This document shows, piece by piece, positions 5,363-38,071 of a stretch of 38,071 nt of DNA. Every line of letters starts with the position of its first letter. The first letter of the stretch is position 1. Origin of the DNA: a virus. The translations under genes and the position numbers were made by a program. The notes beneath the pieces were generated by a model that worked only from the letters and a program-made list of their open reading frames with translations, made no database searches and was not told where the DNA came from. Where the stretch lies: positions 1-38,071 of IMG/VR virus record IMGVR_UViG_3300042882_000131; one strand, given 5' to 3'.

Positions 5363-5367
5363 TCAGT

Positions 5368-5754: not shown

Positions 5755-6055
5755 GAGCCTCATATCCTTCATCCCCTGGTTGAAGAAGTTCTTTCTCATC
5801 ATAAAGAGCATTCTCTTTAGCAACTTTTTCAATTTCTGCTAACAAAACAGTAATTGTATAAAAGCTACGCTCAAGATCATTCATTTCTTCATATTTCCCT
5901 CCCATTATTTTCTTAAGAGATTCATCTCTTTTGACAGGGTCAGGAACTTGATTGAATAGATAGAAGAGTACATGCTTAAGCATCTTATAGAAGTTATTAT
6001 TGACCTTTACATCAATAATAGTGTCTTGTTTGAGTTCTTTTACTTTAACCGCCAT
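5741..6055 (-). CDS. Lone minus-strand gene, unknown function
   Basis: A 104-residue protein on the strand opposite to everything around it within the first 22 kb. It begins MAVKVKELKQDTIIDVKVN, a strand-rich start, followed by amphipathic helices (FYKMLKHVLFYLFNQV; RSFYTITVLLAEIEKVAKEN) and an acidic tail (GDEGYEAPTQE). Amino-acid composition and length look like a real protein, and no competing plus-strand gene fills 5755-6073. It overlaps the convergent gene at 5368-5754 by 14 bases. Only 18 bases separate its start from the plus-strand glycosylase start, leaving little room for two promoters. No family is recognised. Confidence 0.75.
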   Translation of the reverse strand: MAVKVKELKQDTIIDVKVNNNFYKMLKHVLFYLFNQVPDPVKRDESLKKIMGGKYEEMNDLERSFYTITVLLAEIEKVAKENALYDEKELLQPGDEGYEAPTQE

Positions 6056-6073
6056 AACACAAATATAGAAAAT

Positions 6074-7377: not shown

Positions 7378-7553
7378 TAGACTACAAATTAAAGATCTTC
7401 ATTATAGCATTAATGGGATCACTCATTGGGTACAAAGTAGTTGATCTATTTATAATCCCAGTGACCTTTTGGCAATACTTCAGTATTGAAGTTGTCATAA
7501 CAGTATTACATGTACTCTATGACATTGTCAAGCAGAAGGAAATAAACAGGTAA
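7374..7553 (+). CDS. Small membrane protein (59 residues), TTG start
   Basis: A short open frame from TTG 7374 (overlapping the preceding stop as TTGA) to TAA 7551-7553. It encodes 59 residues; an internal ATG at 7413 would give 46. It has a short basic start (IDYKLK), a hydrophobic helix from about residue 7 to 31, an aromatic turn (TFWQYF), and a second hydrophobic stretch (VVITVLHVLYDIV). A basic tail (KQKEINR) follows. This otherwise empty 178-base interval between two replication genes is fully covered by the frame, which ends two bases before the next ATG. The tight packing and hydrophobic pattern support a real gene; the start codon is uncertain. Function unknown. Confidence 0.5.
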   Translation: MIDYKLKIFIIALMGSLIGYKVVDLFIIPVTFWQYFSIEVVITVLHVLYDIVKQKEINR

Positions 7554-7555
7554 AT

Positions 7556-12894: not shown

Positions 12895-13286
12895 TGATTT
12901 TAAACAGACAAGAAGCAAGTAATATCTTAAAGATGTTACAGTCAGAAGATCAAGACAACATGACTATAGCTTTCCAGGCTATTGATGCTCACACATTTAG
13001 TACAAAAGAAATTGGATATCTTATTTATTTCTACAAGTTTAGTAAATATGATAAGGCTGCTTGGGAAAATCATGCTCCGAAGTCTTACAAAATTTTGGAC
13101 AAGTTTGTAAATATGAATGAGCCTCTTACTTATGGTAAGGGTCTGACAATTATGATTGAAAAGAAAACTAAGCCTGAGATTATTGAGCTGTTCTTAGAAG
13201 GACATGTAGCTGAATTAACTCGGATGTTAGGAACTATGGGTTACCCCGTAGAGAGTTTAGAGATTAACATAAATCTAAAGAAATGA
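12894..13286 (+). CDS. Hypothetical protein with SEDxDN motif
   Basis: A 130-residue protein whose N-terminus contains NILKMLQSEDQDNMTIAFQAID (residues 10-31). It resembles the segments in the proteins at 4662-5108 and 15794-16939. The middle is aromatic and helical, and the last 40 residues form helices (KPEIIELFLEGHVAELTRML) and a strand. It starts with a one-base overlap (TGATG) and ends in an ATGA overlap with the metallopeptidase/VWA gene, so it may be functionally linked to the MoxR/VWA pair. No family recognised. Confidence 0.65.
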   Translation: MILNRQEASNILKMLQSEDQDNMTIAFQAIDAHTFSTKEIGYLIYFYKFSKYDKAAWENHAPKSYKILDKFVNMNEPLTYGKGLTIMIEKKTKPEIIELFLEGHVAELTRMLGTMGYPVESLEININLKK

Positions 13287-14509
13287 GTAAACATGATTCA
13301 CTGGGTAAAGCCAGCAAAGAGCTAATGTGGAAAGAACCCTTCTATGGTTTCTTTCTGATTATGCTAAACAAGATTTGGACTAATAGAGTTCCAACGGCAG
13401 GCGTAAGTAAGAATGGTATTAACTACCAACTTGCTATCAATGAAGATTTCTGGGAGAAATTACCAGAAGCACATCACATAGGTTTACTAAAGCATGAGTT
13501 ATTGCACATTGCTTTCTTCCACCTGAGTCAAGTATTTAAGTTTCCAGATCACAAGATGGCAAACATAGCTATGGACATGGAGATCAATCAGTACATTGAT
13601 GATGAATATTTACCTGAAGGTGGTATTGACATCAAAGACTATGATGACATGAATCTTGACCTTAAAGCTGGTTGCCGTTATTATTATGACAAGCTTAAAC
13701 AAGCTCAGGAAGAGAAAAAACAGAATGGTACATGTGGTTCTCCTAATATGGATAAACTACTGGATGGTCTAGAACAAGGACAATGTACCGTAGTTATAGG
13801 TGGTCCTGGCGGTGATAAAGAAGTAGAGATTCCAGAACATGCTACATGGGAAGAATTTGAAGATTTATCTGAAGCAGAGCAAAAGTTGATTGAACAACAA
13901 GTTCAAAGAATTCTTACTAATGCTGCAGAACAAACTGTAAAGAAGAGAGGTACTGTACCGGGTAATATCCAACAGCTACTTGACAAACTTCAAAATTTGG
14001 AAAAGCCTAAGTTTGACTGGCGTGGTTATGTCAGAAGATTCACAGGTACATCTACTAAAGTTTTTACAAAGAAGCTTAGAAGAAAAGAGAATAGAAGATA
14101 TTCTGACAATCCAGGTCTGAAGATTAAGATGAGACAACACATGTTGTTGGCCATTGATACTTCAGGTTCTGTAAGTGACACTGAACTCAAAGAGTTTATG
14201 GGTGAGATTTATCACATTCATAAGTGTGGGGTTGACGTTACTATTATCCAGTGTGATACAACAATTAAATCTATTGAACCGTTTGATCCCAAGAAAGATC
14301 TTACAGTTCATGGAAGAGGTGGGACTGAATTTGATCCCGTCCTAGAATATTATAATGCCAATCTAAGAAAGTATACAAGTCTTGTATATTTTACAGATGG
14401 TGAGTGTTACTCATCTGTGCAACCAAAAGCACCAGTATTATGGGTGCTGTCTGAACGGTCAAGTATGAATGATAGCCTTCCGGGCAAAGTGATTAAGTTA
14501 GAACTCTAA
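13283..14509 (+). CDS. DUF2201-type metallopeptidase/VWA protein
   Basis: A 408-residue two-domain protein. The N-terminal half carries the zinc-binding HELLH at residues 71-75 in a helix, followed by a His-rich, aromatic helix and conserved acidic residues (AMDMEINQYID), matching the putative metallopeptidase part of DUF2201. A charged linker (about 140-270) follows. The C-terminal part is a von Willebrand A-like domain with the MIDAS motif DTSGS (292-296), then GRGGTEFDPVL and FTDGEC, which complete the metal site. Such proteins pair with MoxR ATPases, here encoded 11 bases downstream. Together they may act as a chaperone-like or protein-remodelling machine; whether the HExxH site is active is not shown. 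Confidence 0.85.
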   Translation: MSKHDSLGKASKELMWKEPFYGFFLIMLNKIWTNRVPTAGVSKNGINYQLAINEDFWEKLPEAHHIGLLKHELLHIAFFHLSQVFKFPDHKMANIAMDMEINQYIDDEYLPEGGIDIKDYDDMNLDLKAGCRYYYDKLKQAQEEKKQNGTCGSPNMDKLLDGLEQGQCTVVIGGPGGDKEVEIPEHATWEEFEDLSEAEQKLIEQQVQRILTNAAEQTVKKRGTVPGNIQQLLDKLQNLEKPKFDWRGYVRRFTGTSTKVFTKKLRRKENRRYSDNPGLKIKMRQHMLLAIDTSGSVSDTELKEFMGEIYHIHKCGVDVTIIQCDTTIKSIEPFDPKKDLTVHGRGGTEFDPVLEYYNANLRKYTSLVYFTDGECYSSVQPKAPVLWVLSERSSMNDSLPGKVIKLEL

Positions 14510-22092: not shown

Positions 22093-25000
22093 TTACTGCG
22101 GTGGTCTACTACTGTATTTCTCCATGTTCTTAATTAGAGTTTCAGCGTCTCCAGTTCTACCTGACAAACCAAATGTTGCCATAAAGTGAGTAATTACTTT
22201 TGGTGCACCCTCTTGTTGCCAAGAATATGGTCCAGTATCTTTCTTATAGTAAGCACTGTCATTCCCCATAAGCATACTCGCTAAGTCATCAATAATCTTT
22301 ACATACATTTTAAGAGTAGAACCAAATGCTGGTGAAGTTACACCAATGAACTTAGCATATTCATTCAACCCTAATCCTGGTATAGGCATAAAGGTAGAGG
22401 TCTCTTGTTTCACACCCATCATCAAAAACAACATGTGGTTTACCATATAACCTCTGAGTTGGAAATCAGGAGTAAATGCTGGTCCTGATCTAGCGCGGAT
22501 CTTTTCCCATCTAGCTTCATCATCATCATCATATCCAAAGAGTAATAGAATTCCAAGTACTGCAAGTAACACAGATACTCCTTCTCCTATAGTTCTTTTA
22601 AGATCCACCTTTTCTTGGGCTGTCATATAAAGATATGCATCTGATTTATACGTGAGCATTTTCTTAAGTGCAGCAAGCGCACCTATATAATAACCGCGGG
22701 TAGGTTTTCCTAATGCCCAATCATATCTGTAACCACCTACGTTTCCTGACTTGGTATCCATACCAAATCTATTCACAAAACCTGGTGTAGCCCATTTACG
22801 CATAAAGAAAAATAATCTATAGGCTAGGTATTTGTTTCCTTCAGCTTGACCAAATGAATCATAAGCACCATATAGTCTTCTTGATACTGCTTGGAACTGG
22901 TTGCGGAATTGTTTAAACTTCATGGCTTTAGAGATAATTAACTCTTGGCCTTCTTGTAGTTGTGATGCTTCTCTGATACTGTTCTTTGCTTTAAGATCTT
23001 CTACAGACATAGAGTACTTATCTGCAATTTCTTGTAGAGTTTCTCCTGGAATATATTCATGAGTAATCTCTCTATTTCCCCATTCAGGATCAATACCCTG
23101 TTTAAGCGTGATGATACCATTCTCATCTAGCTCCCACGCATCAATGTATCTGATAGGTACTACACCGCTAGCTGTTTTCATGTCCAAGTATTTATGGTGC
23201 ATGAATCCTCCAAACAACTGCATAGCAGCTTCCATTTCCCCAAACTTTCTGAAGTCATACATCCATGATCCATCAAGTAAGTCTTTTGCCATTGTTCTTG
23301 TGATAGATCTACCGTGCTCTTCTTTAGCTTTAAAGAATGGGTCAAATCTTTGAATCAACTGAACTGATAAACTCTGACCACCTTTCGTGTAAATACCTGT
23401 AGTAGCCCACTCAATCATTGTCTTTTTTACCCACGGTTGTGCAGTAAAATAAGATTGTAAACTGACGTACTCACCTCCAGTAGATTCAATAATATTCTGC
23501 ATAACCTGACCATACCTATTCTTTAAATCTGAAGGTATGTTTACTGCTAGTGTTGCTCTACCGGCAGCTTTGGTCATACCATTAATCAGTTTATGTAACC
23601 ATGGGTTAGACTCTTCTACACCTACTACTTGTCTACCATGATAGGTTCTTTCAAACAAGGCTCTGAATTGTTCAAGTCTATTATAAGTAATACTCTTACC
23701 GGCACCCGCAGGTTTTAATTTCCCTGTAAGCTTGGCTACTTTCTTGTCAAACTTATTAGGTTGTTTCAGTGGGTTGTCTTCAAGTGTCTCAAGAATACCT
23801 TTAGCTAAGTCAACTGTATCAATTAACTTAGTTTGCATCTTAGCAGATGTCTGGTATCTCATTAGGTTATCAATGATATTTGGAGATACCTCATTGATAG
23901 GAATGTTATACAATCCTGATATAGGGATATAAGACAACTGGTTACCTTGAAGGTCAGTAGTTACAAGCTGTTGATTCACATCAAAGTTTGCATTAGACTC
24001 ATACTCATCAGCTTTAAGTTTTCTGTTTAAGATAGATTTATCTAACTGATACCTGATACTACCTCTAAGGACTTCTAAGTTATTCTTATACTTACCACCT
24101 TGTATACTTTCTAAGGTTCCACTTACACCAAATCTTGGCATATCATTCCAAAGCTTAGATCCTCTAGGTAGATCTTCCTGGTTTTTGTGATGGAACTCCT
24201 TGAGAAGCTCAATTAATTTAAACTGAGAACTGTTGGCGTTTTTCATTGCCAAGTATTCTTGGTTCACATACTTGTCACTAACAGCACTATTAGGATCATT
24301 AAGATCATACGGCCTTGGCAAGAATTGGTATTCATTGTCCACATATATGCCAACATAATCATCCCAGTTAGCGCCAAGAGGGATAGTTCTAAATTCATCT
24401 TTTACTTGGTATTTAGAGTGACGTGCATTAGGCTTACCTCTGAACTCTATATCTTTTCCAGTAATCCTATCTTTAACTTTAGTAATAACTAGATGCTCAG
24501 GGTTAGAAGGTACGGATACAGAATAAGCCATTAGTCTTTCATATACTGTAGATTGTTTAGCCTTTCTTTTACCCTTCTGTTTCTCATACTTAGTTTTAGT
24601 AACATGATTAGCAGTAAACCAGTTGCTAAACTTTTTGTCTTTCTCTAAGAGTTCTACTATCTGGTCACCATTAATAAAGTCATTAGCATCTGCAGATTTT
24701 ACTTCCGGGAGACCCATCTTAACCAAATAGTGGTTAAGTGCATCCATGTAATATTCTGTAGGTACCTTAGATGATAACTCAGATAGTCTATTAAAGATAC
24801 CTGTCATCTCTGCATGTTCAGTAGCAGTAAGTCCTCCTGATTGCATATCACTGAGCTTTACAAATCTCTTTGTTTCTGCCGGGCTCAGTTTTTCATTAGT
24901 CTCAACCTTTTCACGGTATGCTTCAAGCTCATCTAACTGTTCTCTAGTTAAACCTAACTTAGAGTTGTAACTGTTTTTAAAATCATTGATCTTTTGTTGA

Positions 25001-28000
25001 AGCTCTTTGACCATCTTTAATCTGTCAACTCCAAGTTCAGACGGCACCGGTTGGTTCTTTTCATCCTTAAATGCATATATCAATTCAAAGATATCCCCAT
25101 AGGCTTCACTAAGATTAAAAGTCTCTTTAGCAGCTACGTTTTGTTTAGCTTGAAGTACCTTAAGTCTTTCAATGTCTTTTACTTTAGCATCATAGTATTC
25201 CTGAGCATAAACAAGCATGATGTTTTGTTTATCCCACTCACTCATGCGTTTTTTCCATTCAGGGCTATCTCTCTTTACACCTTCTGCATCAAGTAGATTT
25301 GCAAATTCATTGTATGCTCTTTCTAAAGAACCCGGTACCTCTACAAACTCATAGTACTTTCTGTTCTTATCACGGTATTCACGGAGAAGCATAGCCTTAC
25401 TTAAGTCATATCTTCCTGTAGCAGGGTCATCAAACTTAGGTGTACCATCTATATAGTTAAGCTCAAAGAGTTGTTGATATCCTTTCCAAGCAGCTTGTGC
25501 TGTAGAGTAACTCTCAAATCTTTCCATCTCATTTGAGTACTTGTCCGTCTCTGCGGCAAAGTTATCTAGTGCAGTTTGTCTATCTATCCATGCTAATCTA
25601 CCTATAGGAGTATCAAAGACTTCATCAGCTTTGTATACTTCAGGTAAGAACATATCATATAGATAATCAATTGAGAGCTTTCTAAGTTCTGCTGCGCTAT
25701 CTTTAATCTTATCTCTGTCACCAGTTTCTTTGGCTTCTTCAAACTTATATGCTAGCTCTGCTCTATCAGCACGGTAACCCTTGTGCTCATTCTGCAGTGT
25801 GTAAACCTTTACTCTTTCACCTTCACCTTTTGAGTTTACATGGAATACCTCATCTTCAAATGTAGTAAGCTCAAGTATCTGCCGCGTCTTATTAGGATTG
25901 TAACCCACAGCTTTAAGTAATGGCTCAAGCTTTTGTCTAAATACTTCAGATGAATCCATCACTTCTTGCATGGCATTGGTCTCAATGTCATTTACAAATA
26001 TTGCAAAGGCACCTACTATAGGATCATTACTAGATGTGTAAGCCTCAAGCATTCTATTGAACCAAGAAGCATCTGCTTCCGTACCAGATAGTAATCCCCG
26101 GATTCTTTCTTCAGTGATTCTGTATTTTCTAAAGTGATCAATAAAAGCACCAACTCCTTGTGCACTAAGATTCTTATCTTTAAGTGCATTTATTTCCTCA
26201 TCTGTGATTGTATTACTTACAATTCTCTCATAGAGGTCATCTATCTCAGCTTCTGATAGGCGCGCGCTAAGCTGGTCAAGATTCTGTTTAAGCTCTTTAT
26301 TTACAAAGTCATTCATATACTGAGTATACTCTTTGTAGAATTCTGTAGCTCTCTCAAACTTAATCTTAGTGATTAGATTTTTAGATCTCTGAATAGTTGT
26401 ATTTGTCTGACTTAACATCTGAGCAAACGGATTGTCTGTCTTCATTGCAAAGTCACGTACAAGCAAGTCATCTGTATCTTTAATCAACTCACCATAGGCA
26501 GTAACTGTACTATTAAAGACAGCCAAGAGTTTTTCACCTTGACGGGAAGTATACTCACCACTTCTAATAAGATCATTCAAACTGTCATAGATGTTATCCA
26601 TAACATTGTTAATAACTGAGAAGCTATAGACAACAGTTGTTGCCTGTAAAGTGAGCTCCTGTAATCTTCTGATTTCTGCATCTACAGTATCATCAACTAT
26701 CTGAGCTCTACTTCTTTTTGCAGATATCTGTACGGTCTGGAACTTTCTAACACTGGCCTGAACATCTTTAATCAAACGCTGACCTTCATTCTCAAACATG
26801 GCTTTTTCCAAGACCTTGTACTGAGGACTCTTTTTACTTACTCTTTTAGCAACATCTAACACCTCTTTATTTCTAAAGAAGAAGTCATTGATTATTGCTA
26901 TCATAGCATCAGCACTAATATTTTTAGCAAGGTCCTTACTAGTATTATCTAACTTGTTGATACGGGCTTTCTCTGCTCTGGCAAACTGGGCTACCTCCTC
27001 ATCAGTCATCTTACTAGCAATCTCAAAGCTTTGGGTTAATACCTTTTGTGCTAATTGATCTAGTGTAGTATTAGCATTTATGTCAGCAACATCTACTCTA
27101 CCAAAGATACCTTTAAGGGCCTGCTTGATTGCGTACAGTAAGTTTCTAATAAATCTAGAGAAGCCGTCTGTTTCAATCTCTTGTCTTATTTGGTTGGTTG
27201 CTCTCTTACTTAATGCATGTACTAGCATCTCTTCTTTATACAGAACGCTTCCCTCTGGTAGTTCAGGATAGAGTCTAGCCATTTTCTCTTTAAGCATCTG
27301 ACCTTCATCTGTACCCATAAGTTGGTCATACAAGTTATCAAATAGCCTAGAGTTATCTCTTCTAATTGCAGCTATGAGGGGATGGGAAAATTCATGTAGT
27401 GCTGTATCTAATGTAAGACCTCCTTCTATAAAGTACACTGTACCGGCATAATAGAATGCTGGCTCACCATTATATTTGATAGGAGAATTTTTTAGAATCC
27501 TAGAAGCTTCCTCCCGGGTGATTTGTTGGTAAGGAGTCTTCATAGACTCAGATAATTTCTGAGCAAAGATAGTACCTAGTACAGCTGATCTTTCTATGTC
27601 CATGTCACTCTTGACACCCATATTCATGGGACCTTCACCATATGCATATACTAGGTCTTCATTGATGTGAGCCTGGTTATCCATAATAAGTTCCGCCCAT
27701 ACCATGTTGGTAAGTGGATCTAAAGCATCAGATACCAATGTTAAGCCATCCGCTTTAAGCGTTTCTCCTAGCTCAATCACAGCGTTCTTCAGTACCCCGC
27801 TTTTCTTATATTCATCAGGTATATTTGCAAAGTTGATTACAGCATAATTACCGCTAAGACCATATGAAATGTCCCCAACTCTGATACCGTCCACCATAAC
27901 TGGCACGCTCTCATTGTTCTCACCGTAATATTCAGTCTGACTCAAATCTATATTCTCAAATACATTAAGTCCAGTAGGGTCATTAACAAACCTTCTAAAG

Positions 28001-29094
28001 CCCTCAATATCTTGTTCTGAACCTAGTATGTGGATTTGCTCAGGTTCAAATACTAATAACTCTTTAATATTACCAAGTTGATTGTTGACACTATCATATC
28101 CAAATTTTTCATTTAAAAGATCAGAAATGGATTTTGTAATAACAGGGAAATTGTTTGCAATATCTATATACTTTCTATTAGTGTTTCTGTTTAAAGTATC
28201 ACTATCAACACCCAACATTTCTGCAACTACACTATAATAACTTGAAGGCATAAATTTTGGATCTTTTTCCTTAAGCTTCTTTACTATGTCATTATAAGTC
28301 TCTCCGTATTTTTTAAATGTTTTTTTTACGTTTACTATAACAGGTATACTATACTTTCTTGACATAGAATATCCTTGGGACTTTCTTTTAAAGTCTTTCC
28401 ATGCTTCTTCCCATTGCTCTTCAGTAAAATTACGTTCTTCCCAATTAGAATAATCTGGATCAGTTAATATGTTATTTTTATCTTCAAGAAACTCTTCTCT
28501 AAGTTCTACTATACTAACATTTTTTCTAAAATAAAAGTAAAACCCATCTCCAAGAAATAAACCATCACCTTGATTAATTCTTTCTTTAAGAAATCCTTCA
28601 GATACTATATCCCCATTGTAAGCATCATGATAAACAATATCTTTTACAGTGCTTTCAGGAAAGATACTATTTAGATAAGCAGTGTATTGTTCTTGTGTAC
28701 CTATGGTAACTAGTTCTGGATTATTATCAAAGAGTTCTTTTACACCTTCTTTAGGCTCCTCTCTCATAAAAGAAGCTATGTCATCTTCATTAGAAGCTTC
28801 TCTCTTTTGCATGAGCAACTTAGTCTCCTGCTCATCAATTAACCCGTCTAATACTGAGAAGAGCAGTTCATTAGGTTCAGCTCTATATATAACATTCCCG
28901 TTTACTTTTTTGTCAGATACACTGTATAGTAGTTCACCTGGTGTAGGTGCTAGACCATAAGTTCTTTTGGCAAACTCAGTTAGTCTAAGATTAGCATCAT
29001 CAAATCTTTGGAAGTCTTGAATTACTCTTACGTCACTAATGATGTTTTCAGCCTTAAGCATATCAAGGCTGTTCATCTTACTACTACACTCCAT
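22093..29094 (-). CDS. Giant multi-domain virion-type protein, probable ejected cargo
   Basis: A 2333-residue protein, probably packaged and ejected with the genome, as large proteins next to the polymerase are in crAss-like phages. Domains in order: about 150-360 an ADP-ribosyltransferase-like region (DIVYHDAYNG ... GDGFYFYF; then VFEPEQIHILGSEQDI). About 398-475 is a GNAT-like region (SGVLKNAVIELG ... LTLVSD ... VWAELIM). A zincin-like segment follows with HEFSH at 567-571, possible third ligand Glu near 621, and a basic amphipathic helix (RNLLYAIKQALKGIFGR, 650-666). Long coiled-coil-rich helical regions follow. About 2013-2057 is a LysM repeat (IPGETLQEIADKYSM). At 2172-2188 is a membrane helix followed by DDDDE. 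Domain calls are from patterns and differ in certainty. The start overlaps the polymerase stop (TAATG). Confidence 0.85.
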   Translation of the reverse strand: MECSSKMNSLDMLKAENIISDVRVIQDFQRFDDANLRLTEFAKRTYGLAPTPGELLYSVSDKKVNGNVIYRAEPNELLFSVLDGLIDEQETKLLMQKREASNEDDIASFMREEPKEGVKELFDNNPELVTIGTQEQYTAYLNSIFPESTVKDIVYHDAYNGDIVSEGFLKERINQGDGLFLGDGFYFYFRKNVSIVELREEFLEDKNNILTDPDYSNWEERNFTEEQWEEAWKDFKRKSQGYSMSRKYSIPVIVNVKKTFKKYGETYNDIVKKLKEKDPKFMPSSYYSVVAEMLGVDSDTLNRNTNRKYIDIANNFPVITKSISDLLNEKFGYDSVNNQLGNIKELLVFEPEQIHILGSEQDIEGFRRFVNDPTGLNVFENIDLSQTEYYGENNESVPVMVDGIRVGDISYGLSGNYAVINFANIPDEYKKSGVLKNAVIELGETLKADGLTLVSDALDPLTNMVWAELIMDNQAHINEDLVYAYGEGPMNMGVKSDMDIERSAVLGTIFAQKLSESMKTPYQQITREEASRILKNSPIKYNGEPAFYYAGTVYFIEGGLTLDTALHEFSHPLIAAIRRDNSRLFDNLYDQLMGTDEGQMLKEKMARLYPELPEGSVLYKEEMLVHALSKRATNQIRQEIETDGFSRFIRNLLYAIKQALKGIFGRVDVADINANTTLDQLAQKVLTQSFEIASKMTDEEVAQFARAEKARINKLDNTSKDLAKNISADAMIAIINDFFFRNKEVLDVAKRVSKKSPQYKVLEKAMFENEGQRLIKDVQASVRKFQTVQISAKRSRAQIVDDTVDAEIRRLQELTLQATTVVYSFSVINNVMDNIYDSLNDLIRSGEYTSRQGEKLLAVFNSTVTAYGELIKDTDDLLVRDFAMKTDNPFAQMLSQTNTTIQRSKNLITKIKFERATEFYKEYTQYMNDFVNKELKQNLDQLSARLSEAEIDDLYERIVSNTITDEEINALKDKNLSAQGVGAFIDHFRKYRITEERIRGLLSGTEADASWFNRMLEAYTSSNDPIVGAFAIFVNDIETNAMQEVMDSSEVFRQKLEPLLKAVGYNPNKTRQILELTTFEDEVFHVNSKGEGERVKVYTLQNEHKGYRADRAELAYKFEEAKETGDRDKIKDSAAELRKLSIDYLYDMFLPEVYKADEVFDTPIGRLAWIDRQTALDNFAAETDKYSNEMERFESYSTAQAAWKGYQQLFELNYIDGTPKFDDPATGRYDLSKAMLLREYRDKNRKYYEFVEVPGSLERAYNEFANLLDAEGVKRDSPEWKKRMSEWDKQNIMLVYAQEYYDAKVKDIERLKVLQAKQNVAAKETFNLSEAYGDIFELIYAFKDEKNQPVPSELGVDRLKMVKELQQKINDFKNSYNSKLGLTREQLDELEAYREKVETNEKLSPAETKRFVKLSDMQSGGLTATEHAEMTGIFNRLSELSSKVPTEYYMDALNHYLVKMGLPEVKSADANDFINGDQIVELLEKDKKFSNWFTANHVTKTKYEKQKGKRKAKQSTVYERLMAYSVSVPSNPEHLVITKVKDRITGKDIEFRGKPNARHSKYQVKDEFRTIPLGANWDDYVGIYVDNEYQFLPRPYDLNDPNSAVSDKYVNQEYLAMKNANSSQFKLIELLKEFHHKNQEDLPRGSKLWNDMPRFGVSGTLESIQGGKYKNNLEVLRGSIRYQLDKSILNRKLKADEYESNANFDVNQQLVTTDLQGNQLSYIPISGLYNIPINEVSPNIIDNLMRYQTSAKMQTKLIDTVDLAKGILETLEDNPLKQPNKFDKKVAKLTGKLKPAGAGKSITYNRLEQFRALFERTYHGRQVVGVEESNPWLHKLINGMTKAAGRATLAVNIPSDLKNRYGQVMQNIIESTGGEYVSLQSYFTAQPWVKKTMIEWATTGIYTKGGQSLSVQLIQRFDPFFKAKEEHGRSITRTMAKDLLDGSWMYDFRKFGEMEAAMQLFGGFMHHKYLDMKTASGVVPIRYIDAWELDENGIITLKQGIDPEWGNREITHEYIPGETLQEIADKYSMSVEDLKAKNSIREASQLQEGQELIISKAMKFKQFRNQFQAVSRRLYGAYDSFGQAEGNKYLAYRLFFFMRKWATPGFVNRFGMDTKSGNVGGYRYDWALGKPTRGYYIGALAALKKMLTYKSDAYLYMTAQEKVDLKRTIGEGVSVLLAVLGILLLFGYDDDDEARWEKIRARSGPAFTPDFQLRGYMVNHMLFLMMGVKQETSTFMPIPGLGLNEYAKFIGVTSPAFGSTLKMYVKIIDDLASMLMGNDSAYYKKDTGPYSWQQEGAPKVITHFMATFGLSGRTGDAETLIKNMEKYSSRPPQ

Positions 29095-32000
29095 TATATC
29101 TTACATTTAAAGGGATTATTCTCCTCATCAAAATTAAACTCTATTTCAGCATCACTGATACCTTGTTCTTCCGCTATCATCTCTACAACTTCTGCATACA
29201 TGGTAGAACCCGGATTCACATATCCAAACTCCTCATAGAGTCTTTTACTTAAATATACAAATAATTCTTTAGGCATCAAGCGTACATCACCAAATCCAGT
29301 CTTAGGGAATGCTATCTTAACACCTCTAGACAAGTCATGTTGTATCTCCTCTATAGCATCCTCAAACAATCCTTTTACTGCAAAAAACGCCTTAGATTTT
29401 ACTCCTGTAAAGTTATCATTTAATGCTAAATTAGAAGTAGGGAAAAGTATAGTCATTGACTCATCAATCTTACTCAGTCTTGATTGACCTTCAAAGATCT
29501 TTGTTTTATCTGTCATCAAAGCTCTTGGTGAGTTAGCTACAAAAACAATATCTGGATGTTTAGCAACCATCTCCTTATATTCTTCTTCTGAATCTAAATA
29601 AATATAAAGATTAGGTGTATTGGTAGCTTTTATATAGTTGCTTCTTGGCTCCTTTTTCTTCCTTGCTTCTTTTGGACGTGGGATATTCTCAAGATCATTT
29701 ACAAAGAAAAGCTCTTTAAATCTGCTCTTCTCTGAATTAAGCATGTTGTTTTGATTAATAAACAGATTAAAAAATCTATTTAGTAAAGTATCAACTTTTT
29801 CTTCATCATCAAGAATATCCATGAACATGTCACCTTGATCTCTCATGAGGTCAGTATACAATTCTAAAGGAACTACATTATTGAAGTTCATCTTAGTTTT
29901 GTTAAGTCCAGTTTGCATCAAAGACATCAATGGCATTCTTGAGAAGAAATCACTTATTAATTTGTTTTCTTCTGGATCAGCTACTTTAACTACTCCTGGA
30001 TTAGCAAGGTCAGCAAAGTTCTTATTATAAAGATTAGACAAAGAGTTGGTAAAGTCCTTCTCATTCAGATACAAGTTAAATACACTTTCTGTAGAGTTAG
30101 TATCTAGCATTAGTCTGCTAAGTACCGGATATTCTTTTTTAAGTTTTCCTCCGTACACCTCTTCATCTCTTTGCATTAACTCTTTGAATTTAACAGCATA
30201 TGCATTCTCTGGATCTTTAAACATCTTATGAGGATTGTAAGTGTTATCCAGGGCCTTCATAGCTAGTATCTTCTCATAAGCATATCTTGCTTGAGCAACT
30301 TTATCTAACTCAGGTTTAGTAATCTTTATTCCTCTTAGCTCACTGTTAAATTCAGCAGTCTTACTAATCTCTTCTGTAGAGTAAATAGATCTCAGGTATT
30401 CTCTCTCAGCTACAAAAGCATAATACTCTGCTATGTTAGTAGTTCCATTAGACTTAAAGTATGATGAATCTAGTGCGTATAAGCCTCTATCTTCATATGA
30501 ACCCTCAAACTCAGAACCTTCTTTCCATAAACCATACTCAAAGTCTTGACGCAACTGCATCTCATCAATGTAAAGAGTGTCCTGACCTTGATCATTTTTC
30601 TTTACATAAGCACCAAACTTCAAGTTGTCTACTAGATTTACAGGAATTTTTGTGCTTGTGTTGTAACCTTTGTAAGCTGGACCTAGATTAAACTTTCTCA
30701 ATGCATTCTGAAGAAGCATACTCACTAGATCATTTCTAAAGGTTCCAATCATTTGTGCAATTTTCCCTGACCCAAAAGTATTGTCTACATTGCTTTTGAA
30801 CATTTTAAGATTTGTAACAATCCATTCAGATAAATTAGGGTGATATCTTAATGGCATCAAAGGTTGCAGCAAAGCTAGTATAAGATCATTATTATACATT
30901 GCACTAGTTACCGAGTCATACCTTAAGGCTGTTCTTAAATCTTGGTCAATCTTAGTATCATCTTCAAGATCTTTTCTTGCAGACTCAGTTAATTCTACAT
31001 CAGCACCCGTTGAATCAGTTTTTGTATCAGGGTTTGAGTTTATCTTTAATTTTGTAAGACCTTCAATCTGTTGTTCTATCTCTAGGAAGTGCAAGAACAT
31101 AAGTTGAGATAATCCACTATACTTTATTTTATTGGCAGCTGTCTGAGCCTTTTTTACTAGTTTTTCTAGTTCAGCTTCTAACGGCATTCTTCCGTTTTTG
31201 TCAAAAAATTCAGCTTCAATCTTACCCTGACGCACTTGAGAATTTTTAATAAGCTCTAACATTTCTGCCTCATTGAAGTTTCTATCTTTTTCTCCAAAGT
31301 ATTTATCTGAAAGAGCACGTCTCTGAGCATAGTATTTATCACTAGTTATAGGAGTATCAAATGCTTTTTTCATTACACGGTAAGCAGCATCCTTCTTTAC
31401 ATTGCTTTTTGAATCAGATTTTTTACCAAGTGGTTCAGCAAATGTACTATTACCTTGTCTTTGTTCTTTTACATACTCTCTAACTAGTGGTTGTGAAACA
31501 AAGAAGATAGCTTCTTTTACAGGTACCCCAGCTTTAATTAGGTATAGCGTTGTTGAAGCAAGCTCATAGTTTCCTTGGATAAAGAAGATCCATGCATCTT
31601 TCTCAACATCCACCCATCCATTGATAGACTGGGAGAACAAGTCAGCTACTTTGTGTACATTATCTACATCATATCTACTAGCTATTGATATTACTTCATC
31701 ACCATCTTTATTAATTGTAGTGTGGTGTCTAAGGAGTAACTCCATCTTTCTTGGTGTCTTACTTTTACCCTGCAGGTATGTAGCCGGCATCTTAGCATCT
31801 AATGAATTCATGATTACATTAAATGTGTTTTCTATAGCTCCAAGACCAAGGGTTTTCTTACCAATCTCATTAGACTCATGCTTGTATATGTTGTATCCAG
31901 ATTCTAGAACACGCGTAGGACTAATGACCTTTTTAACTGTCTTTACTCCATTCTCATCTACGTTTTTGTAGTTTGGTGAATCAGAAGACATGTTCTTATA

Positions 32001-35000
32001 AGGGTCATACTCCATCACATATTGAGCAAGCTCATCTGCAATTGGCTTTAGAATATAAGTACCGTTTGGTCTAATCAATGAAGGGTAGTTCTGTGGAAGC
32101 TCAAGAATGTTTTTGATGTCTTCTATGAGTTCATTCTCTAATGCAGCTTTCTGAGCTTTGATAATCTCAGTGTGAGACTCTTTATTCTTTCTAGCTTCAG
32201 CTACGGCATCTTTTAGAATCTGAATGCTCTCTTCTTTAGTTTTACCTTTTTTAAGTAGTCTACCTTTTACAGTACCGTCCTCAGATATGTTGGGCATAAA
32301 CGTAGTCAACTTATCAATATCAAAGTCAGCTCCTGATTTAGCAACAATCTCAGATGGTGGTATAATAATATTCCCGGCTTCTGGTGGAAGGAAGTGATAC
32401 ACCTCCATAAATTCCATAGAGTTAAGACCCTGTACTGGAATTCTCACAGCAGCCATAGTTACTGCTTGTCTGTTAGTACCTTTATCTAACCAAGAGTCTT
32501 CTTTAATCATTTCATTGAGACGGTCAATAGTACCAATCTCTTCTCCATCATTATGCTCTAGGTTCAACAGATAGTTAAAGTCACCTTGTAAGGCAACCAT
32601 AACTTTCATAGCTGCTGTAGTACCGTCTGTTGTTGTAGTAACTTTTGGTTTTCTACCTGCAATGACATCTTTTAGATACTGTATCTCATCTCTAAGAGCT
32701 TGTTGATGGGTAGGAGTCCAATAAGCTGACTGTTCCTCTTGTATCCTTTCTTTAGTTTTTAAAGCTGCCTTTAGACTTTCCTTACTTGCATTTTTGTATA
32801 ATGCATCAAGGTCAATAATTTTTCTATGGTATGTTGGCAGGAAGTTAGACCCTTTGTATTTTTTCTTCTGTGCTTCTGTAGCATTAGTAAGATCAGCAAT
32901 AGGACTTCCAAACACTCCTTCATACATAGCAGCAGATACCTGAACCAATGGCTCACCTTTTACTTTCTGCTTGATGATTTTCTTGTTGATTACAGATAGT
33001 AACAACTTCTCAATCTTCGGTGCTTCAGGGTGTAGTGATAAGTCATTTCTCAATGAACCATCTTCAGTTACATCTATAAAGCCTTCAATCAAGTGGTCAC
33101 CCAATGTGTCATCTCTCTCAAGTTCCTGGCGAATAAGTTCAGCTAGTTTTTCTGTGCTCTTTTTATCTCTAGGTGTATAGACAAGTTTACCATCTACGGT
33201 CTTCTCATCATAACCAATCTTCTCTAGTAATTCTACTTTAAGAATATTAGTGTACTCAAAGACATTATCAATGTAGCGCTTTACTTTATCACTAGTAATC
33301 TGAGTCTCATCAGTAGACTGTATTACACCTCTCTCATAAAGACCCTCAAGGATCAACTTACGTAACTGAGTAGAGAAGATAGACTTCTCTTTATATGTAC
33401 TGTTAAGTTCTGTCTGATTCTTCAAGAACTCAGAGAATACTTTATTTACTGTAAACTTAGAGTCTTTAATTAGATCACCATTTTCATCAAAGATAGTATC
33501 ACCCTTTCCGTCTGGTGCAATGTGTCCTACTTTAGAACCTGACTGAAAGACTACATAGTCTACATTGTCCTTCATCATCTTGTCATGTAGCGCAGATAGT
33601 TTTGCTGATCCTGTTACAGAAGGAATAAGTGGGGCTAATGAGAACTTATGGAATGATGTAACAGACAAACCTTTTGTGTCTATGTTTCCAAAGTACTGTA
33701 ACTTATAAGGTGGGAAGTATTCAATGATATCTTCTACTGATAGCTTATCACCGTTTACAATTCTTTTATATAGCTCTTCTTGTTCATCAGTCCAGTTACC
33801 CTCCAAAGTCTTAAGCATGCGGTAAGACTCTAGAGTAACATGTCCCTGACCATCACCTTCTTCCATGCCTAAGTATGCCTTAGCTTCAGTTTCTGAAAGC
33901 TTCTTAGCATAGTCTTTTTTGTTCTTAATAGTCTTGTTATCCTTAAGACGGGTTAAGATATCTTGATAAAGAGTTTCTTTGTACTCATCATACATGATTG
34001 AGTTAAGCGTTTTCTCTTTAATGATAGCTGTGTGTATTCTACCATCATAGTTTCTAATGTTATACCCTTTCTTCTGAGCATAAAGTCTAGGGAAGAGTGA
34101 GCTGTTGATATAGTCTCTTGCTCTTTGGTCAGCTCTAAAACCTCTTCCTGGAGCTGTCATACCTGCATTACGCTTATGGAACTCTTCTTTCTCATGGTTA
34201 TACTGAGCTAAGTCTCCGTAAGTAAGAATCACTGACTCATAGTTATGAATCCAAGAGTTGTATGTATAGGCTTTAATTAAGATTTCATCAACTTGCTTTC
34301 TTGTCAAACCTTCTTGTGTAGCAACCTCAGTCAAAGCTGGATCAACATATCTAGCTTTACTTAAAACATCTAGATTGATTTTAGTTTGCTTGTCAAAATA
34401 GTTATCTACATCATTTTTTAAAGCTTGATACAGATCATCATTTTCATCTAAAGCCTCAAGTAAATCTCCATCTATATCATAAAGCATTTCTTTAGTGTCT
34501 TCAGTAAGAACATCATCAAATGCTGTAAATACTTCACCTGCCATTACAATAGTCCCGTCTTTCTTTCTGACTTTTCTATTGTAACCAGCCCAGTTCTTCA
34601 TCTGCAATTCTGTATCTGTGATACTATCATCTTTGAGATTAGCTTTAAATCTCTGGATTCTTTCAAGCTCACCAGCTACATAACCTTTGATAATATCAAA
34701 TGCTTCTAGTTCACCCTCACCTCTACGGGCAGGACGGAAATCAGCAATGTCTACATAAAGATAGTCTGTTTCTTTTCCTGGATTATCAAAGTTAGCAGTG
34801 TCTACTTTTCTAGCTCTGATACCTTGAGCCATAGACTTAGATGCGTGACGCATGAACTCCTGAACACCACGTAACAACATAGTATTCATTTCTTGTAGGA
34901 ACTTAGTAGTTGCATCAGCAGAACTTGTAGATACACCATCTTCTGGAGTTAAGCTACCTTCTTCTAATACCTGAGTACCCGCTACGTTGATTACTTCTAG

Positions 35001-38000
35001 CTCATTAAATCCTTCATCACTTACTCTTCTTCTCTCTCCAAACTTGCTATTCATTGGATCCATATAGAAGATAGAGTTCATATTAACACTATGCTTGATA
35101 TGTGGATTGTTTGAATCTCTCAACCAACGCATGTGTCTGAAGTCACCATCTACATCAAACTCTTGCTCATCTTCATCAATCAGATACTTAAAGCTTTTTG
35201 CCTTGTTTAGGGCACCCATTGTACGGGTAAGTGTACTGTCTAAGAAGTGTTCCCAAACACGGTTTCTCTCAGGACTAAGTACACTAAAGTTAGCATAGTT
35301 ATCAGAGAACTTAATGTTTATCTCAGCTAATTCTCTTAGTCTTGTTCTTACATCCTCTGCATTCTCAGCACTCTCTCTTAAGTCTTCAGGTAAACCATCC
35401 ATCAAGTACTTAATAGGATTACGGCTGAACTCTTTAGCAGCTGCTACTTTTTTAAGATCATCTGACTTAGCAGCTTTGTTGATCATCTTGAGCAAGCTGA
35501 AGATATAATCTACTCCATACACTTTTGCAAAACCAGACTTTTCCATCATAGCGCTGATCTCAGCACTTGTTCTATCTAAGGTAATTCCAAGAGCTTCAAG
35601 AAACTCAAATGATCTTTTAAAATCAAATTTATCACCTTTACTAAATTCAGAAATAATCAAATCAATGTCTAATATGTTTGATAACTTATCCTTGGTGATA
35701 AAATTATTAGGAGAAGGGTCAGCTAGTTGGAAGTTAGCAGACCATACTTTGAATACAGCATAAACATCAAAGTTTGCATTTACTATACTAGATGAGAACT
35801 CTGTTTTATCAGGGATACCTTCCTCTAATGAAGCTACTTGTCTTTTAGTAATGTTCAATTGTACATATGGGATTCTTGGCTTTTTAAAATCTTGCCAAAA
35901 TCTTGTTGTAGTATTGAACTCAGCTGTACTTTTATAGGATTCGCTTGATAGAGGATTATGTAACATCTCCATCAGTTGGTTAAACTCTGGATAGTTTTTT
36001 GAATATTCCATCAGCTTAACATAGATTTCCTCATCAGTGAGTGAACCGGCAAGTGTTCTTGCTAGCTTATTCCACATGATATCTTTAGACTCAAGGATAT
36101 CAAAACCTAGTTTATCCTGTACTCTAGTAAAGGTACCGTCTTTATTTTTGTCTACTTTGAAGATACTTGAGATAAGCATTAGGGTATCTTCTGAAGCTAG
36201 TTCTTTAGATGATTTAGTATTACCTTCTGTAGATGGGATAATCTGACCTACAGAATCTATAGCAGCTTCATCTTCATCTACTTCTACATAGGTATCTTTT
36301 AATACATTAAATCTTGTGTTATTAATATGGTAAGCAACAAGACCTTTCTTTTCTTTACCTTTTAGAGAAATATCTATGTCTCCAAAATTGTCTACCATTT
36401 TGCTTAAGAGCAAGACATTATCAGAAAGTACAGCTTGAGTATCTAGATCTGGAGTATCACTTTGTCTATTCTCAGAAGCTAGTTCTTTGAGTTCTCTTTG
36501 AGCTATGTCTCTTTTAAGTATTAGCCTTTCAAGTATTTTTGCATAAGTTTTTTCTCTATTTAAACCATCATTCAAAATTCTTGAAACACCAGCTGTTGTT
36601 TTAAAATACGCGTTATAGTCTAAGAAAACATCCGCCATGATACTATCCATTGCATCTACGGCTCTCTTAGAGTCATCAATGGTAAATGGACTGTAGTTTT
36701 TACTTTCAGATTTTATAACTTCAATAGCTTTAGATCTGTTGAGTACATTGAACTCAGGCATTACATTTTCTATAGCCGGAGTAAGATGGTTGATGTCACC
36801 TTTGTACAATGCATCAAAGTATCCTTTTACTTCAGCTATGTCTCTTGGTCTAGTGAGGTCTCTCTTTGTAAGCTTACCAAATAGTAATCTTATGGCTCTT
36901 GCAATTCTATCAAAGATTCTTCCAATGATACCTTTAGGCTTAGTCTTACCAAGCATGAAGTCTCTGAAGTCTTCCGCTATTGCTTCTTCTATATCTATGA
37001 ATTCTGCATTAGCCCACTTAGGAGACTTTCTCATTGCTTCATATAGTGCCGTCTTCTCATCTATACTCAAGTACAACTGAGAGAATGCATGCCATGCTTC
37101 GTGATAAAGGTCAACAGATGTACCACCATCAGCTTGATTTAATGTAATACCTGCACGTGACCATGTTGCAAATGCATCAGAGTTTAGTATCTCAGTAATT
37201 ACAGTAACAGGAATAAGCAGGTTACCCTCTTTATCTTTTGCTGTAGACAAAGGGGAATTACTCCACCAGTTGTCAGCTCTCTTTTTATCCGCTTCAGTAA
37301 CAAAGTATTTATCAAAGAAAGATGCTACACTCATTGATCTATTAAAGCCACTGAAATTAATAGCACTCTCACTTAATATTTTTCTGTCTTCCTCTGAAAG
37401 AACTTCTTTTGTTTTAGCAACCGTTTTAGCTGCAGTTTTTGATGGAGTTGCTTTAGTCTTAAATCTAGCCTTGAACTTAGTTTCCTTTGAACGTCTATCT
37501 GGGGCAGCCTTTTTACCTTTAGCAAACTTATTTACAGGCTTAGACATTTCTTTAGTCCACCAATCTTTTGGTGCTACTACTTTAGTCTCAAGACCTAATC
37601 TAGCAGCAGCTTTTGTAGCAGCTTCTTCAATACCTGTCTGACCTGTGGTAATAACATTTGTAATTTCTAATTTAAGATTACTAGATTCTACAACAGCTTT
37701 AAGAGTATTGTACATAAAATTATCTAGTACATCTTGAGTATAACCTTTTAGTGCAGTAATATCTCCACCTGTAATAGTAAGCACTCCGCCTGGGGATGCA
37801 TTAATTTGAATTACTAGATTATTAATAGCAGCTGGTGTTAATTCAAGCTTCCCACCACGTTTACTAAAGGTTTGAGGAAAGTATGGTTTACCAGTGCTAT
37901 CTACTGCATTCTGTGTAACTGTATTAGAACCACCTGTAACATTTGCAGGATTGAATGCTAGCACTAAGTCTGCCATAGCAATTACAGCTTGCTTTACTGG

Positions 38001-38071
38001 AGCATATCCTGCAGTCTTGTGCTCTGAGAAAGTAATCTTTCCAATGTTTTCCGTTACATCTTCCTCTTCTG
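29094..38071 (-). CDS. crAss-like virion RNA polymerase, giant protein, 5' end beyond the window
   Basis: A giant protein with the DFDID motif (1884-1888 counted from the first in-window Met at 37976), which binds catalytic magnesium in crAss-like phage RNA polymerases. A strand with SGSKVG near 1482 may be part of the first double-psi barrel; this is inference. The N-terminus has a SLOG-like pattern (TTGQTG, 110-115). A Lys-rich linker (about 145-190) and a zincin-like HEAWH (292-296) with a possible third Glu near 330 follow. The C-terminus (about 2855-2960) carries a conserved-looking domain (VKSKAFFAVKGLFEDA). The frame is open through the 31 codons before that Met to the window edge and reads as protein (TAGYAPVKQAVIAM), so the real start is outside. 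Likely ejected to transcribe early genes. Confidence 0.93.
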   Translation of the reverse strand, partial: EEEDVTENIGKITFSEHKTAGYAPVKQAVIAMADLVLAFNPANVTGGSNTVTQNAVDSTGKPYFPQTFSKRGGKLELTPAAINNLVIQINASPGGVLTITGGDITALKGYTQDVLDNFMYNTLKAVVESSNLKLEITNVITTGQTGIEEAATKAAARLGLETKVVAPKDWWTKEMSKPVNKFAKGKKAAPDRRSKETKFKARFKTKATPSKTAAKTVAKTKEVLSEEDRKILSESAINFSGFNRSMSVASFFDKYFVTEADKKRADNWWSNSPLSTAKDKEGNLLIPVTVITEILNSDAFATWSRAGITLNQADGGTSVDLYHEAWHAFSQLYLSIDEKTALYEAMRKSPKWANAEFIDIEEAIAEDFRDFMLGKTKPKGIIGRIFDRIARAIRLLFGKLTKRDLTRPRDIAEVKGYFDALYKGDINHLTPAIENVMPEFNVLNRSKAIEVIKSESKNYSPFTIDDSKRAVDAMDSIMADVFLDYNAYFKTTAGVSRILNDGLNREKTYAKILERLILKRDIAQRELKELASENRQSDTPDLDTQAVLSDNVLLLSKMVDNFGDIDISLKGKEKKGLVAYHINNTRFNVLKDTYVEVDEDEAAIDSVGQIIPSTEGNTKSSKELASEDTLMLISSIFKVDKNKDGTFTRVQDKLGFDILESKDIMWNKLARTLAGSLTDEEIYVKLMEYSKNYPEFNQLMEMLHNPLSSESYKSTAEFNTTTRFWQDFKKPRIPYVQLNITKRQVASLEEGIPDKTEFSSSIVNANFDVYAVFKVWSANFQLADPSPNNFITKDKLSNILDIDLIISEFSKGDKFDFKRSFEFLEALGITLDRTSAEISAMMEKSGFAKVYGVDYIFSLLKMINKAAKSDDLKKVAAAKEFSRNPIKYLMDGLPEDLRESAENAEDVRTRLRELAEINIKFSDNYANFSVLSPERNRVWEHFLDSTLTRTMGALNKAKSFKYLIDEDEQEFDVDGDFRHMRWLRDSNNPHIKHSVNMNSIFYMDPMNSKFGERRRVSDEGFNELEVINVAGTQVLEEGSLTPEDGVSTSSADATTKFLQEMNTMLLRGVQEFMRHASKSMAQGIRARKVDTANFDNPGKETDYLYVDIADFRPARRGEGELEAFDIIKGYVAGELERIQRFKANLKDDSITDTELQMKNWAGYNRKVRKKDGTIVMAGEVFTAFDDVLTEDTKEMLYDIDGDLLEALDENDDLYQALKNDVDNYFDKQTKINLDVLSKARYVDPALTEVATQEGLTRKQVDEILIKAYTYNSWIHNYESVILTYGDLAQYNHEKEEFHKRNAGMTAPGRGFRADQRARDYINSSLFPRLYAQKKGYNIRNYDGRIHTAIIKEKTLNSIMYDEYKETLYQDILTRLKDNKTIKNKKDYAKKLSETEAKAYLGMEEGDGQGHVTLESYRMLKTLEGNWTDEQEELYKRIVNGDKLSVEDIIEYFPPYKLQYFGNIDTKGLSVTSFHKFSLAPLIPSVTGSAKLSALHDKMMKDNVDYVVFQSGSKVGHIAPDGKGDTIFDENGDLIKDSKFTVNKVFSEFLKNQTELNSTYKEKSIFSTQLRKLILEGLYERGVIQSTDETQITSDKVKRYIDNVFEYTNILKVELLEKIGYDEKTVDGKLVYTPRDKKSTEKLAELIRQELERDDTLGDHLIEGFIDVTEDGSLRNDLSLHPEAPKIEKLLLSVINKKIIKQKVKGEPLVQVSAAMYEGVFGSPIADLTNATEAQKKKYKGSNFLPTYHRKIIDLDALYKNASKESLKAALKTKERIQEEQSAYWTPTHQQALRDEIQYLKDVIAGRKPKVTTTTDGTTAAMKVMVALQGDFNYLLNLEHNDGEEIGTIDRLNEMIKEDSWLDKGTNRQAVTMAAVRIPVQGLNSMEFMEVYHFLPPEAGNIIIPPSEIVAKSGADFDIDKLTTFMPNISEDGTVKGRLLKKGKTKEESIQILKDAVAEARKNKESHTEIIKAQKAALENELIEDIKNILELPQNYPSLIRPNGTYILKPIADELAQYVMEYDPYKNMSSDSPNYKNVDENGVKTVKKVISPTRVLESGYNIYKHESNEIGKKTLGLGAIENTFNVIMNSLDAKMPATYLQGKSKTPRKMELLLRHHTTINKDGDEVISIASRYDVDNVHKVADLFSQSINGWVDVEKDAWIFFIQGNYELASTTLYLIKAGVPVKEAIFFVSQPLVREYVKEQRQGNSTFAEPLGKKSDSKSNVKKDAAYRVMKKAFDTPITSDKYYAQRRALSDKYFGEKDRNFNEAEMLELIKNSQVRQGKIEAEFFDKNGRMPLEAELEKLVKKAQTAANKIKYSGLSQLMFLHFLEIEQQIEGLTKLKINSNPDTKTDSTGADVELTESARKDLEDDTKIDQDLRTALRYDSVTSAMYNNDLILALLQPLMPLRYHPNLSEWIVTNLKMFKSNVDNTFGSGKIAQMIGTFRNDLVSMLLQNALRKFNLGPAYKGYNTSTKIPVNLVDNLKFGAYVKKNDQGQDTLYIDEMQLRQDFEYGLWKEGSEFEGSYEDRGLYALDSSYFKSNGTTNIAEYYAFVAEREYLRSIYSTEEISKTAEFNSELRGIKITKPELDKVAQARYAYEKILAMKALDNTYNPHKMFKDPENAYAVKFKELMQRDEEVYGGKLKKEYPVLSRLMLDTNSTESVFNLYLNEKDFTNSLSNLYNKNFADLANPGVVKVADPEENKLISDFFSRMPLMSLMQTGLNKTKMNFNNVVPLELYTDLMRDQGDMFMDILDDEEKVDTLLNRFFNLFINQNNMLNSEKSRFKELFFVNDLENIPRPKEARKKKEPRSNYIKATNTPNLYIYLDSEEEYKEMVAKHPDIVFVANSPRALMTDKTKIFEGQSRLSKIDESMTILFPTSNLALNDNFTGVKSKAFFAVKGLFEDAIEEIQHDLSRGVKIAFPKTGFGDVRLMPKELFVYLSKRLYEEFGYVNPGSTMYAEVVEMIAEEQGISDAEIEFNFDEENNPFKCKI

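Follow-up and report, generated by a model that had tools for sequence, protein, structure and literature searches.

A giant partner protein of a crAss-like virion RNA polymerase with a slot for exchangeable enzyme-like cassettes

Results

The window analysed here – a stretch of 38,071 nucleotides, positions 1 to 38,071 of IMG/VR virus record IMGVR_UViG_3300042882_000131 – carries on its minus strand a single unbroken open reading frame (ORF) of 2333 amino acids that begins with ATG and occupies positions 22093-29094 (Table 1). An earlier reading of the letters alone (the sequence-only reading) had described it as one virion-type protein combining ADP-ribosyltransferase (ART)-like, GNAT-like, zincin-like, LysM and membrane segments, in a layout resembling polyvalent proteins that are delivered into the recipient cell; that one protein spans the locus is confirmed. 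Our comparisons indicate that it is the partner of a virion RNA polymerase (vRNAP), and that a slot for exchangeable cassettes lies between its conserved head and its conserved core.

The vRNAP gene stands directly upstream on the same strand, and the start ATG of the 2333-amino-acid ORF shares one base with its stop (TAATG). Its product matches the DNA-dependent RNA polymerase 6vr4 (phmmer, E 1.1e-18) and, by tblastn, phi14:2 g066 together with other Crassvirales polymerases; the sequence DFDID agrees with the DxDxD motif described for crAss-type polymerases (PMC7886860). The opposite (plus) strand next door bears replication and nucleotide-metabolism genes, as beside the phi14:2 polymerase block. 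The crAss001 major capsid protein was found in 9 of 15 relatives' records and the portal likewise in 9 of 15, the same six records, several of them short contigs, matching neither. From the type of the vRNAP, the plus-strand replication genes and the capsid and portal genes of relatives we therefore conclude that the window is part of a crAss-like phage genome.

Below E 0.05, searches of Pfam, PHROGs and PDB sequences with the window protein returned matches to the LysM region only; tblastn against named phages gave none at 1e-5 and, at a loose limit, weak rows only (E 0.1 or worse). Some of these weak rows pointed to an 'RNA-polymerase subunit', and orthology with the RNA polymerase (RNAP) partner was therefore tested. 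A profile of phi14:2 g065, crAss001 gp49 and cr128_1 QOR59700 aligned with residues 1566-2241 (hhalign probability 98.5, E 1.6e-15), while all nine controls (eight column-shuffled and one reversed) stayed at a probability of 0.4 or less and an E of at least 0.14. At the other end of the protein the head matched the start of g065 by BLASTP (31%, E 4e-6, for the window; 36%, E 1e-10, for its relative L015), and the N-terminal parts (N-parts) of 18 short relatives aligned with the start of the g065/gp49 group at E 1.8e-5, with a probability of only 78 and with five shuffles at E 0.3 or above. This head is retained whatever the cassette type. The homology of gp49 to the window protein is confined to the C-terminal region, the head match being to g065 only. 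By these alignments the window protein is an orthologue of phi14:2 g065 and, C-terminally, a homologue of crAss001 gp49. The annotation of g065 rests on tandem mass spectrometry (MS/MS) of virions, and gp49 has been detected in virions, with the capsid cargo zone favoured by the authors as its place (PMC10172136). Because of this orthology the window protein is most likely virion cargo that is packed into the capsid and ejected together with the polymerase; the description 'virion-type' thus draws its support from orthology to g065 and gp49, not from proteomics of this phage. Among the GTDB genomes searched there was no confirmed relative of the protein core.

Core comparisons across relatives (which we refer to by L numbers) drew on 72 loci kept from 111 confirmed relatives of a wider core-relative scan, pooled with earlier loci. 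The 91 core ORFs so obtained were reduced to 63 distinct ones by removal of two without a core start and of identical sequences, and to 55 for lengths by leaving out 5'-open sequences and L024, L130 and L127. Across these 55 sequences with a complete N-terminus the N-part preceding the core is 91 to 1102 amino acids long (standard deviation 287) and the core 1588 to 1865 (standard deviation 47). Clustering of 79 full ORFs (repeats included) at 95% identity gave 50 clusters, 22 of which have a short N-part (180 amino acids or fewer) and 28 a longer one with extra modules. Among the 28 filled clusters nine hold the type A10, seven A9, five GNAT, one ART, one – that of the window virus – ART plus GNAT, and five other modules; ART occurs as well in three incomplete sequences (L007, L024 and L128). 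We take A9 to be nucleotidyltransferase-like (NTase-like) and A10, a type otherwise unassigned, to be LPD-like, both labels presumed from motif appearance with no database match.

The distribution of cassettes departs from the core tree, the same type being found in distant cores and different types in close ones. Thus L012 and L003, with cores 82% identical to that of the window, are without ART; L007 and L006/L024, with cores only 53% identical, carry an ART 67% identical to the window's and are without GNAT. Closer still are L014 and L016, whose cores are 99.5% identical and whose aligned stretches are 96-99% identical, and one of which has at the slot an in-frame insert of about 1.6 kb that the other lacks; L193 and L146 (core 90.5%) show the same filled/empty difference by a whole in-frame cassette. 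Comparison of relatives thus shows that the slot, between the head (residues 1 to about 92) and the core (from about 500), holds exchangeable accessory cassettes, ART and GNAT included, and that its content turns over as whole cassettes are gained and lost in frame.

Some slots have features of their own. Those of L143, L150 and L183 seem to contain an extra HExxH-type stretch (HEYQH, HEIVH and HEYAH, respectively), and the slot of L164 is related to that of L150. In L006, L024 and L130 the ART-bearing frame starts within the cassette and is in frame with no head, which may reflect a frameshift or a true break.

Evidence for the ART-like cassette comes through relatives. The window sequence has no Pfam match at E ≤ 1 and does not reach the gathering score of ART-PolyVal (PF18760), and the close relative L007 matches that family at E 6.2 only; all eight hand-chosen ART relatives match it (E 1e-10 to 8e-5), four of them above gathering. 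ART relatives were gathered from IMG/VR with a two-sequence alignment, 80 of 137 confirmed being taken, and the ART, GNAT and zincin fragments were aligned separately. The active-site-type residues of an H-Y-[ED] ART – H, Y and D/E – are all found in the window cassette, with roles assigned by position, not structure. H156 is H in 93 of 94 rows, a count biased because the search pattern contained that residue; the block EPEQIHILGS around E350/E352 lies outside that pattern, and E352 is kept in 80 of 92 rows, duplicate contigs being included in these column counts. With ART alone, tblastn against named phages gave no match. The ART-like assignment proposed from the sequence is thus supported through relatives, and residues 128-371 are likely, though not proven, to be an ART. 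Modules of similar appearance were seen elsewhere: L018 has by eye a second ART-like module at residues ~395-560, with no Pfam ART match, and L114 has tandem ART-profile matches at residues 203-578.

The adjoining cassette has no Pfam match of its own. Its homologues in L138 and L141 match Acetyltransf_1 (PF00583; E 3.9e-6 and 1.7e-7), both above gathering, and among the PDB matches listed for its model almost all are GNATs (Foldseek probability ~1.00, best E only 6e-3), with 2k5t as the top structural match (Z 9.2). A GNAT fold in residues 374-500, as first suggested from the letters alone, is well supported by model and homologues. The canonical acetyl-CoA motif of GNATs is [QR]xxGx[GA], and L138, L141 (R-R-Q-G-I-A) and L020 (Q-R-Q-G-L-A) have it. 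Since it is absent from the window, acetyltransferase activity of this GNAT, and with it the acetylation of host proteins that the sequence-only reading had envisaged, is doubtful. A search for further relatives of this cassette returned only three loci, those of the window virus and L012.

The core opens with a predicted zincin metallopeptidase domain. In alignment A3, whose 18 members came from scans with no HExxH in their patterns, H567, E568 and H571 and the downstream E621 and E622 are invariant (18/18). HExxH is present in 50 of 50 cluster representatives too, a count that is biased because the pattern of the wider scan itself contained HExxH. In an AlphaFold model of residues 374-720, covering GNAT and zincin (mean pLDDT 67.6), the zincin half matches the lethal factor protease (Z 8.0, 150 residues, root-mean-square deviation 4.7), a Z of about 8 being one that a common arrangement can give and that borders on the values attained by models with no clear match. 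The lethal factor family has also been linked to the zincins of polyvalent proteins (PMC5512222). The motif reads HEIMH in g065 and EEFAH in crAss001 gp49 (L036) and cr128_1 QOR59700 (L034); these two gut relatives have probably lost a zinc ligand.

Two further core features lie near the C-terminus. All 18 members of alignment A3 contain LysM, which for that reason belongs by this comparison to the conserved core and not to the payload. For phi14:2 g065 Pfam listed no LysM, ART or GNAT family at E ≤ 10, and the profile alignment is gapped at the LysM. Where membrane segments in the plural had been proposed there is one hydrophobic, possibly membrane-inserting segment; a Kyte-Doolittle peak above 1.6 within the last 260 amino acids recurs in 46 of 50 cluster representatives. 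The guidance through peptidoglycan and membrane that the sequence-only reading proposed for LysM and a membrane helix is a conjecture.

The borders of the slot bear a short motif. In the pairs L014/L016 and L193/L146 a single P-M-[FM]-M-R is present at the empty site, and P-x(1,2)-FM[RK] flanks the filled site at both ends. P-x(0,2)-[FMY]M[RK] gives 18 matches in 16 of 29 cassette-bearing N-parts (28 cluster representatives and the 5'-open L007, related sequences that are not independent), against a mean of 0.37 and a maximum of 3 in 500 residue shuffles; elsewhere the counts are 3 for the core (92,969 residues) and 14 for other large ORFs (294,721 residues). The motif may be a recombination scar, a protease site, or both. 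Its use as a general mark of ART domains was rejected: an FMR-like looser form was found around 8 of 52 ARTs, against a background of 9%.

The vRNAP frame is still open at the window end, and its equivalent in L008 and L009 is a stop-to-stop frame of 3639 amino acids; for these reasons the listed start at 37976 is probably internal. The polymerase contains an HExxH of its own (HEAWH) and, nearer its N-terminus, a stretch that by its motif looks to be of SLOG/YpsA type, with no Pfam match at E ≤ 1. In L014/L016 (about residues 3377-3740 of the vRNAP ORF), and likewise in L033, a gap between BLAST segments marks an apparent insert near the vRNAP C-terminus, perhaps a second variable site. In L010 a giant protein (196-7896) upstream of the vRNAP resembles the window protein in the LysM region (31%, E 2e-4). 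Elsewhere in the window the replication region encodes a DUF2201 putative metallopeptidase and VWA-like protein (13283-14509, plus strand), followed by an ATPase-like protein, and a tRNA-Arg (TCT) gene lies at 3807-3881 (plus strand).

Table 1. Features of the partner-protein locus (window positions; residues of the 2333-amino-acid protein)
Feature	Residues	Position	Strand	Basis or remark
Virion RNA polymerase, crAss-like, upstream neighbour		29094..38069	-	phmmer, tblastn; 5' part lost at window end
Giant partner protein of the virion RNA polymerase, payload-carrying		22093..29094	-	Whole ORF
Conserved N-terminal head	1-~92	28819..29094	-	Homologous to phi14:2 g065 N-terminus
FMR tripeptide, slot front	109-111	28762..28770	-	Window copy ASFMR
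ART-like cassette (likely)	128-371	27982..28713	-	H156, Y186, E350/E352; support via relatives
GNAT-fold cassette	374-500	27595..27975	-	Model matches and homologous cassettes; CoA motif degenerate (K-K-S-G-V-L)
Zincin-like metallopeptidase domain (predicted)	~501-690	27025..27594	-	Motif, alignment, model
HEFSH zinc-binding motif	567-571	27382..27396	-	H567, E568, H571 invariant in 18/18
C-terminal RNAP-partner region	~1566-2241	22372..24399	-	Homologous to phi14:2 g065, crAss001 gp49, cr128_1 QOR59700
LysM domain	2016-2054	22933..23049	-	Pfam PF01476, E 5.4e-7, above gathering
Single hydrophobic, possibly membrane-inserting segment	2167-2191	22522..22596	-	Kyte-Doolittle mean up to 2.27

Discussion

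We consider it probable that the window protein is an RNAP-partner protein carried in the virion and built of a head, an exchangeable payload slot and a conserved core, with a payload that acts early in the host. Its virion location is assigned by orthology, and its enzymatic action we infer from sequence and model. The head could serve as a packaging or assembly signal; the protein would be packaged with the RNAP and ejected ahead of the DNA, as has been proposed for the cargo of crAss001. Once inside, the ART cassette might draw on NAD+ to modify proteins of the host within the first minutes after infection, in the manner of T4 Alt, or might instead disable a defence protein. The core – zincin, long middle part, RNAP-partner region, LysM and hydrophobic segment – would serve delivery of the polymerase. 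With less confidence we suggest that zincin cleavage at the P-x-FMR junctions may set the payload free; such release of payload by a zincin has been proposed for polyvalent proteins generally (PMC5512222). Turnover of the cassettes may follow differences in hosts or their defences.

The likeness to polyvalent proteins on which the sequence-only reading had settled is in part well founded. At least two unrelated enzyme-type domains (ART-like, GNAT fold, zincin) stand in one polypeptide, and the protein is of polyvalent type and probably delivered by the virion; what that reading missed is its identity as an RNAP partner and the exchangeable nature of its ART and GNAT cassettes. Several unrelated enzyme domains, a zincin hub, an ART of H-Y-D type and a GNAT as usual neighbour are all described for polyvalent proteins by Iyer et al. 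2017 (PMC5512222), and ART beside GNAT in one polypeptide is already on record there. What sets the present protein apart is that its modules are confined to a single defined slot, the rest of the RNAP partner being conserved; the main text of that paper contains no word that starts with 'crass'. In the literature searched, with Yutin 2018 and Drobysheva 2020/21 not covered, there was no mention of an exchangeable enzyme slot in an RNAP partner. Polyvalent proteins with ART, GNAT and zincin (PMC5512222) and the RNAP partners of Crassvirales are already known.

Other virion systems are alike in some respects and different in others. Like the window protein, the 'RNA polymerase associated protein' g065 and gp49 lie directly downstream of the catalytic vRNAP and share the C-terminal region, g065 having in addition the head and an intact HExxH-type motif; both have been detected in virions, and both are shorter (1421 and 1349 amino acids). 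In N4-like phages a zincin, and in some of them an ART, travels with the virion RNAP (PMC5512222), and HExxH is found in N4 gp50 (PMC12633501). The N4 vRNAP, however, belongs to a different, single-chain type of polymerase and includes the zincin in its own chain, whereas here the payload lies in a separate gene beside a crAss-type polymerase that matches phi14:2 g066 and 6vr4. T4 Alt and the T4 proteins Ip1-Ip3 are likewise capsid cargo that is injected along with the DNA (PMC5512222, PMC12373910), but Alt is an ART of the R-S-E clade (PMC5512222), and the Ip proteins are encoded by separate genes with their own packaging signal and are not cassettes inside a giant protein.

Several observations weigh against a delivered enzymatic payload, or against parts of that proposal. 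Within the ART-like cassette Y186 is weakly kept: 46 of 82 rows have Y there and 10 have F. The iterated ART profile strayed into helical segments elsewhere in these proteins (L007 residues 935-1146, for example) and was therefore used for column counts only. The AlphaFold model of the cassette is too poor for use (mean pLDDT 51), with no ART among its PDB matches, and PDB profile searches, that with the ART among them, yielded no relevant relative. The CoA motif of the GNAT is degenerate in the window and in L012 alike (K-K-S-G-V-L). By comparison of relatives the payload is dispensable, because 22 of 50 clusters have the short N-part, and an intact zincin appears not to be required by all relatives, because EEFAH replaces HExxH in gp49 and cr128_1. 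As for the junction, the strict motif is present in 4 of 22 short N-parts and missing from 13 of 29 cassette-bearing ones, the window's ASFMR (no P) among them, and the looser motif is barely enriched around ART domains.

The most serious competitor accepts the same delivery and holds that the slot cassettes are anti-defence modules that on entry would disable restriction, CRISPR or other immune proteins, rather than tools for redirecting host transcription. We lean away from it, if not by far. Presence/absence turnover between close phages resembles that of accessory genes driven by host defence; the injected T4 Ip1-Ip3 block different GmrSD Type IV restriction enzymes (PMC12373910), and a phage ART that inactivates CRISPR is known in AcrIF11 (PMC12421852). 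AcrVA5 is moreover the second-listed structural match of the GNAT model (Z 8.8), but it lies within one Z unit of other GNATs such as YhhK and RimL. No cassette matched a known anti-defence protein in sequence, the PADLOC library being outside that search, and the position beside the vRNAP fits a role in transcription too. More modest is the proposal that the cassettes are worn-down or structural passengers devoid of enzymatic role, tolerated between folded domains, with the core alone acting as RNAP partner. The degenerate GNAT motif, the 22 of 50 clusters with a short N-part and the retention of Y186 in only 46 of 82 rows would all suit passengers. Yet E352, in a block free of search bias, is conserved (80 of 92 rows, counting duplicate contigs); in both the window and L007 the ART keeps its reading frame over about 245 codons, and the two ARTs resemble each other more closely (67%) than the two cores do (53%); cassette types recur in distant cores, and the GNATs of L138 and L141 have intact motifs; on balance we find this account improbable.

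An equally small chance attaches, in our estimation, to the zincin being the effector, cutting host proteins, with ART and GNAT as its targeting or regulatory parts. It would explain why HExxH is kept in 18 of 18 relatives, and host proteolysis is named as an option for such domains (PMC5512222); in the relatives examined, however, the zincin belongs to the core whatever the payload, it is the payloads that vary, and the first His is replaced by Glu in two gut relatives. Finally, filled and empty sites might be artefacts of metagenome assembly or strain mixing, given that all slot-bearing relatives are metagenomic contigs and that the junction repeat might mislead an assembler. This we regard as very improbable: L014/L016, L193/L146 and L193/L147 separately give the same architecture with the frame kept on both sides, and each of the main cassette types is seen in several clusters (9, 7 and 5 of 50). 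L006/L024, whose frame starts within the cassette, is a counter-case to the kept frame.

The preferred account – an RNAP partner with an exchangeable payload – can be taken a step further, to a proposal that we offer tentatively and think unlikely to hold as a whole. This crAss-like clade may possess a dedicated payload bay, in which an enzyme cassette bounded by P-x-[FM]M[RK] can be inserted in frame between head and zincin, would be loaded by means of the head, ejected with the polymerase and released by the zincin, so that effectors of entry would be changed by exon-like exchange of cassettes.

In the human gut no viruses are more abundant than crAss-like phages (PMC10172136). Relatives of the present clade are common in metagenomes, and little is known of their cargo beyond the RNA polymerase. 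If our interpretation is correct, then entry effectors would be readable from sequence at one locatable slot and could be linked to hosts or to defences, and the slot itself would be a natural site for testing the delivery of cargo by short-tailed phages. It would furthermore extend polyvalent proteins to the transcription machinery of crAss-type phages, and would provide a concrete processing-site hypothesis for the zincins of polyvalent proteins.

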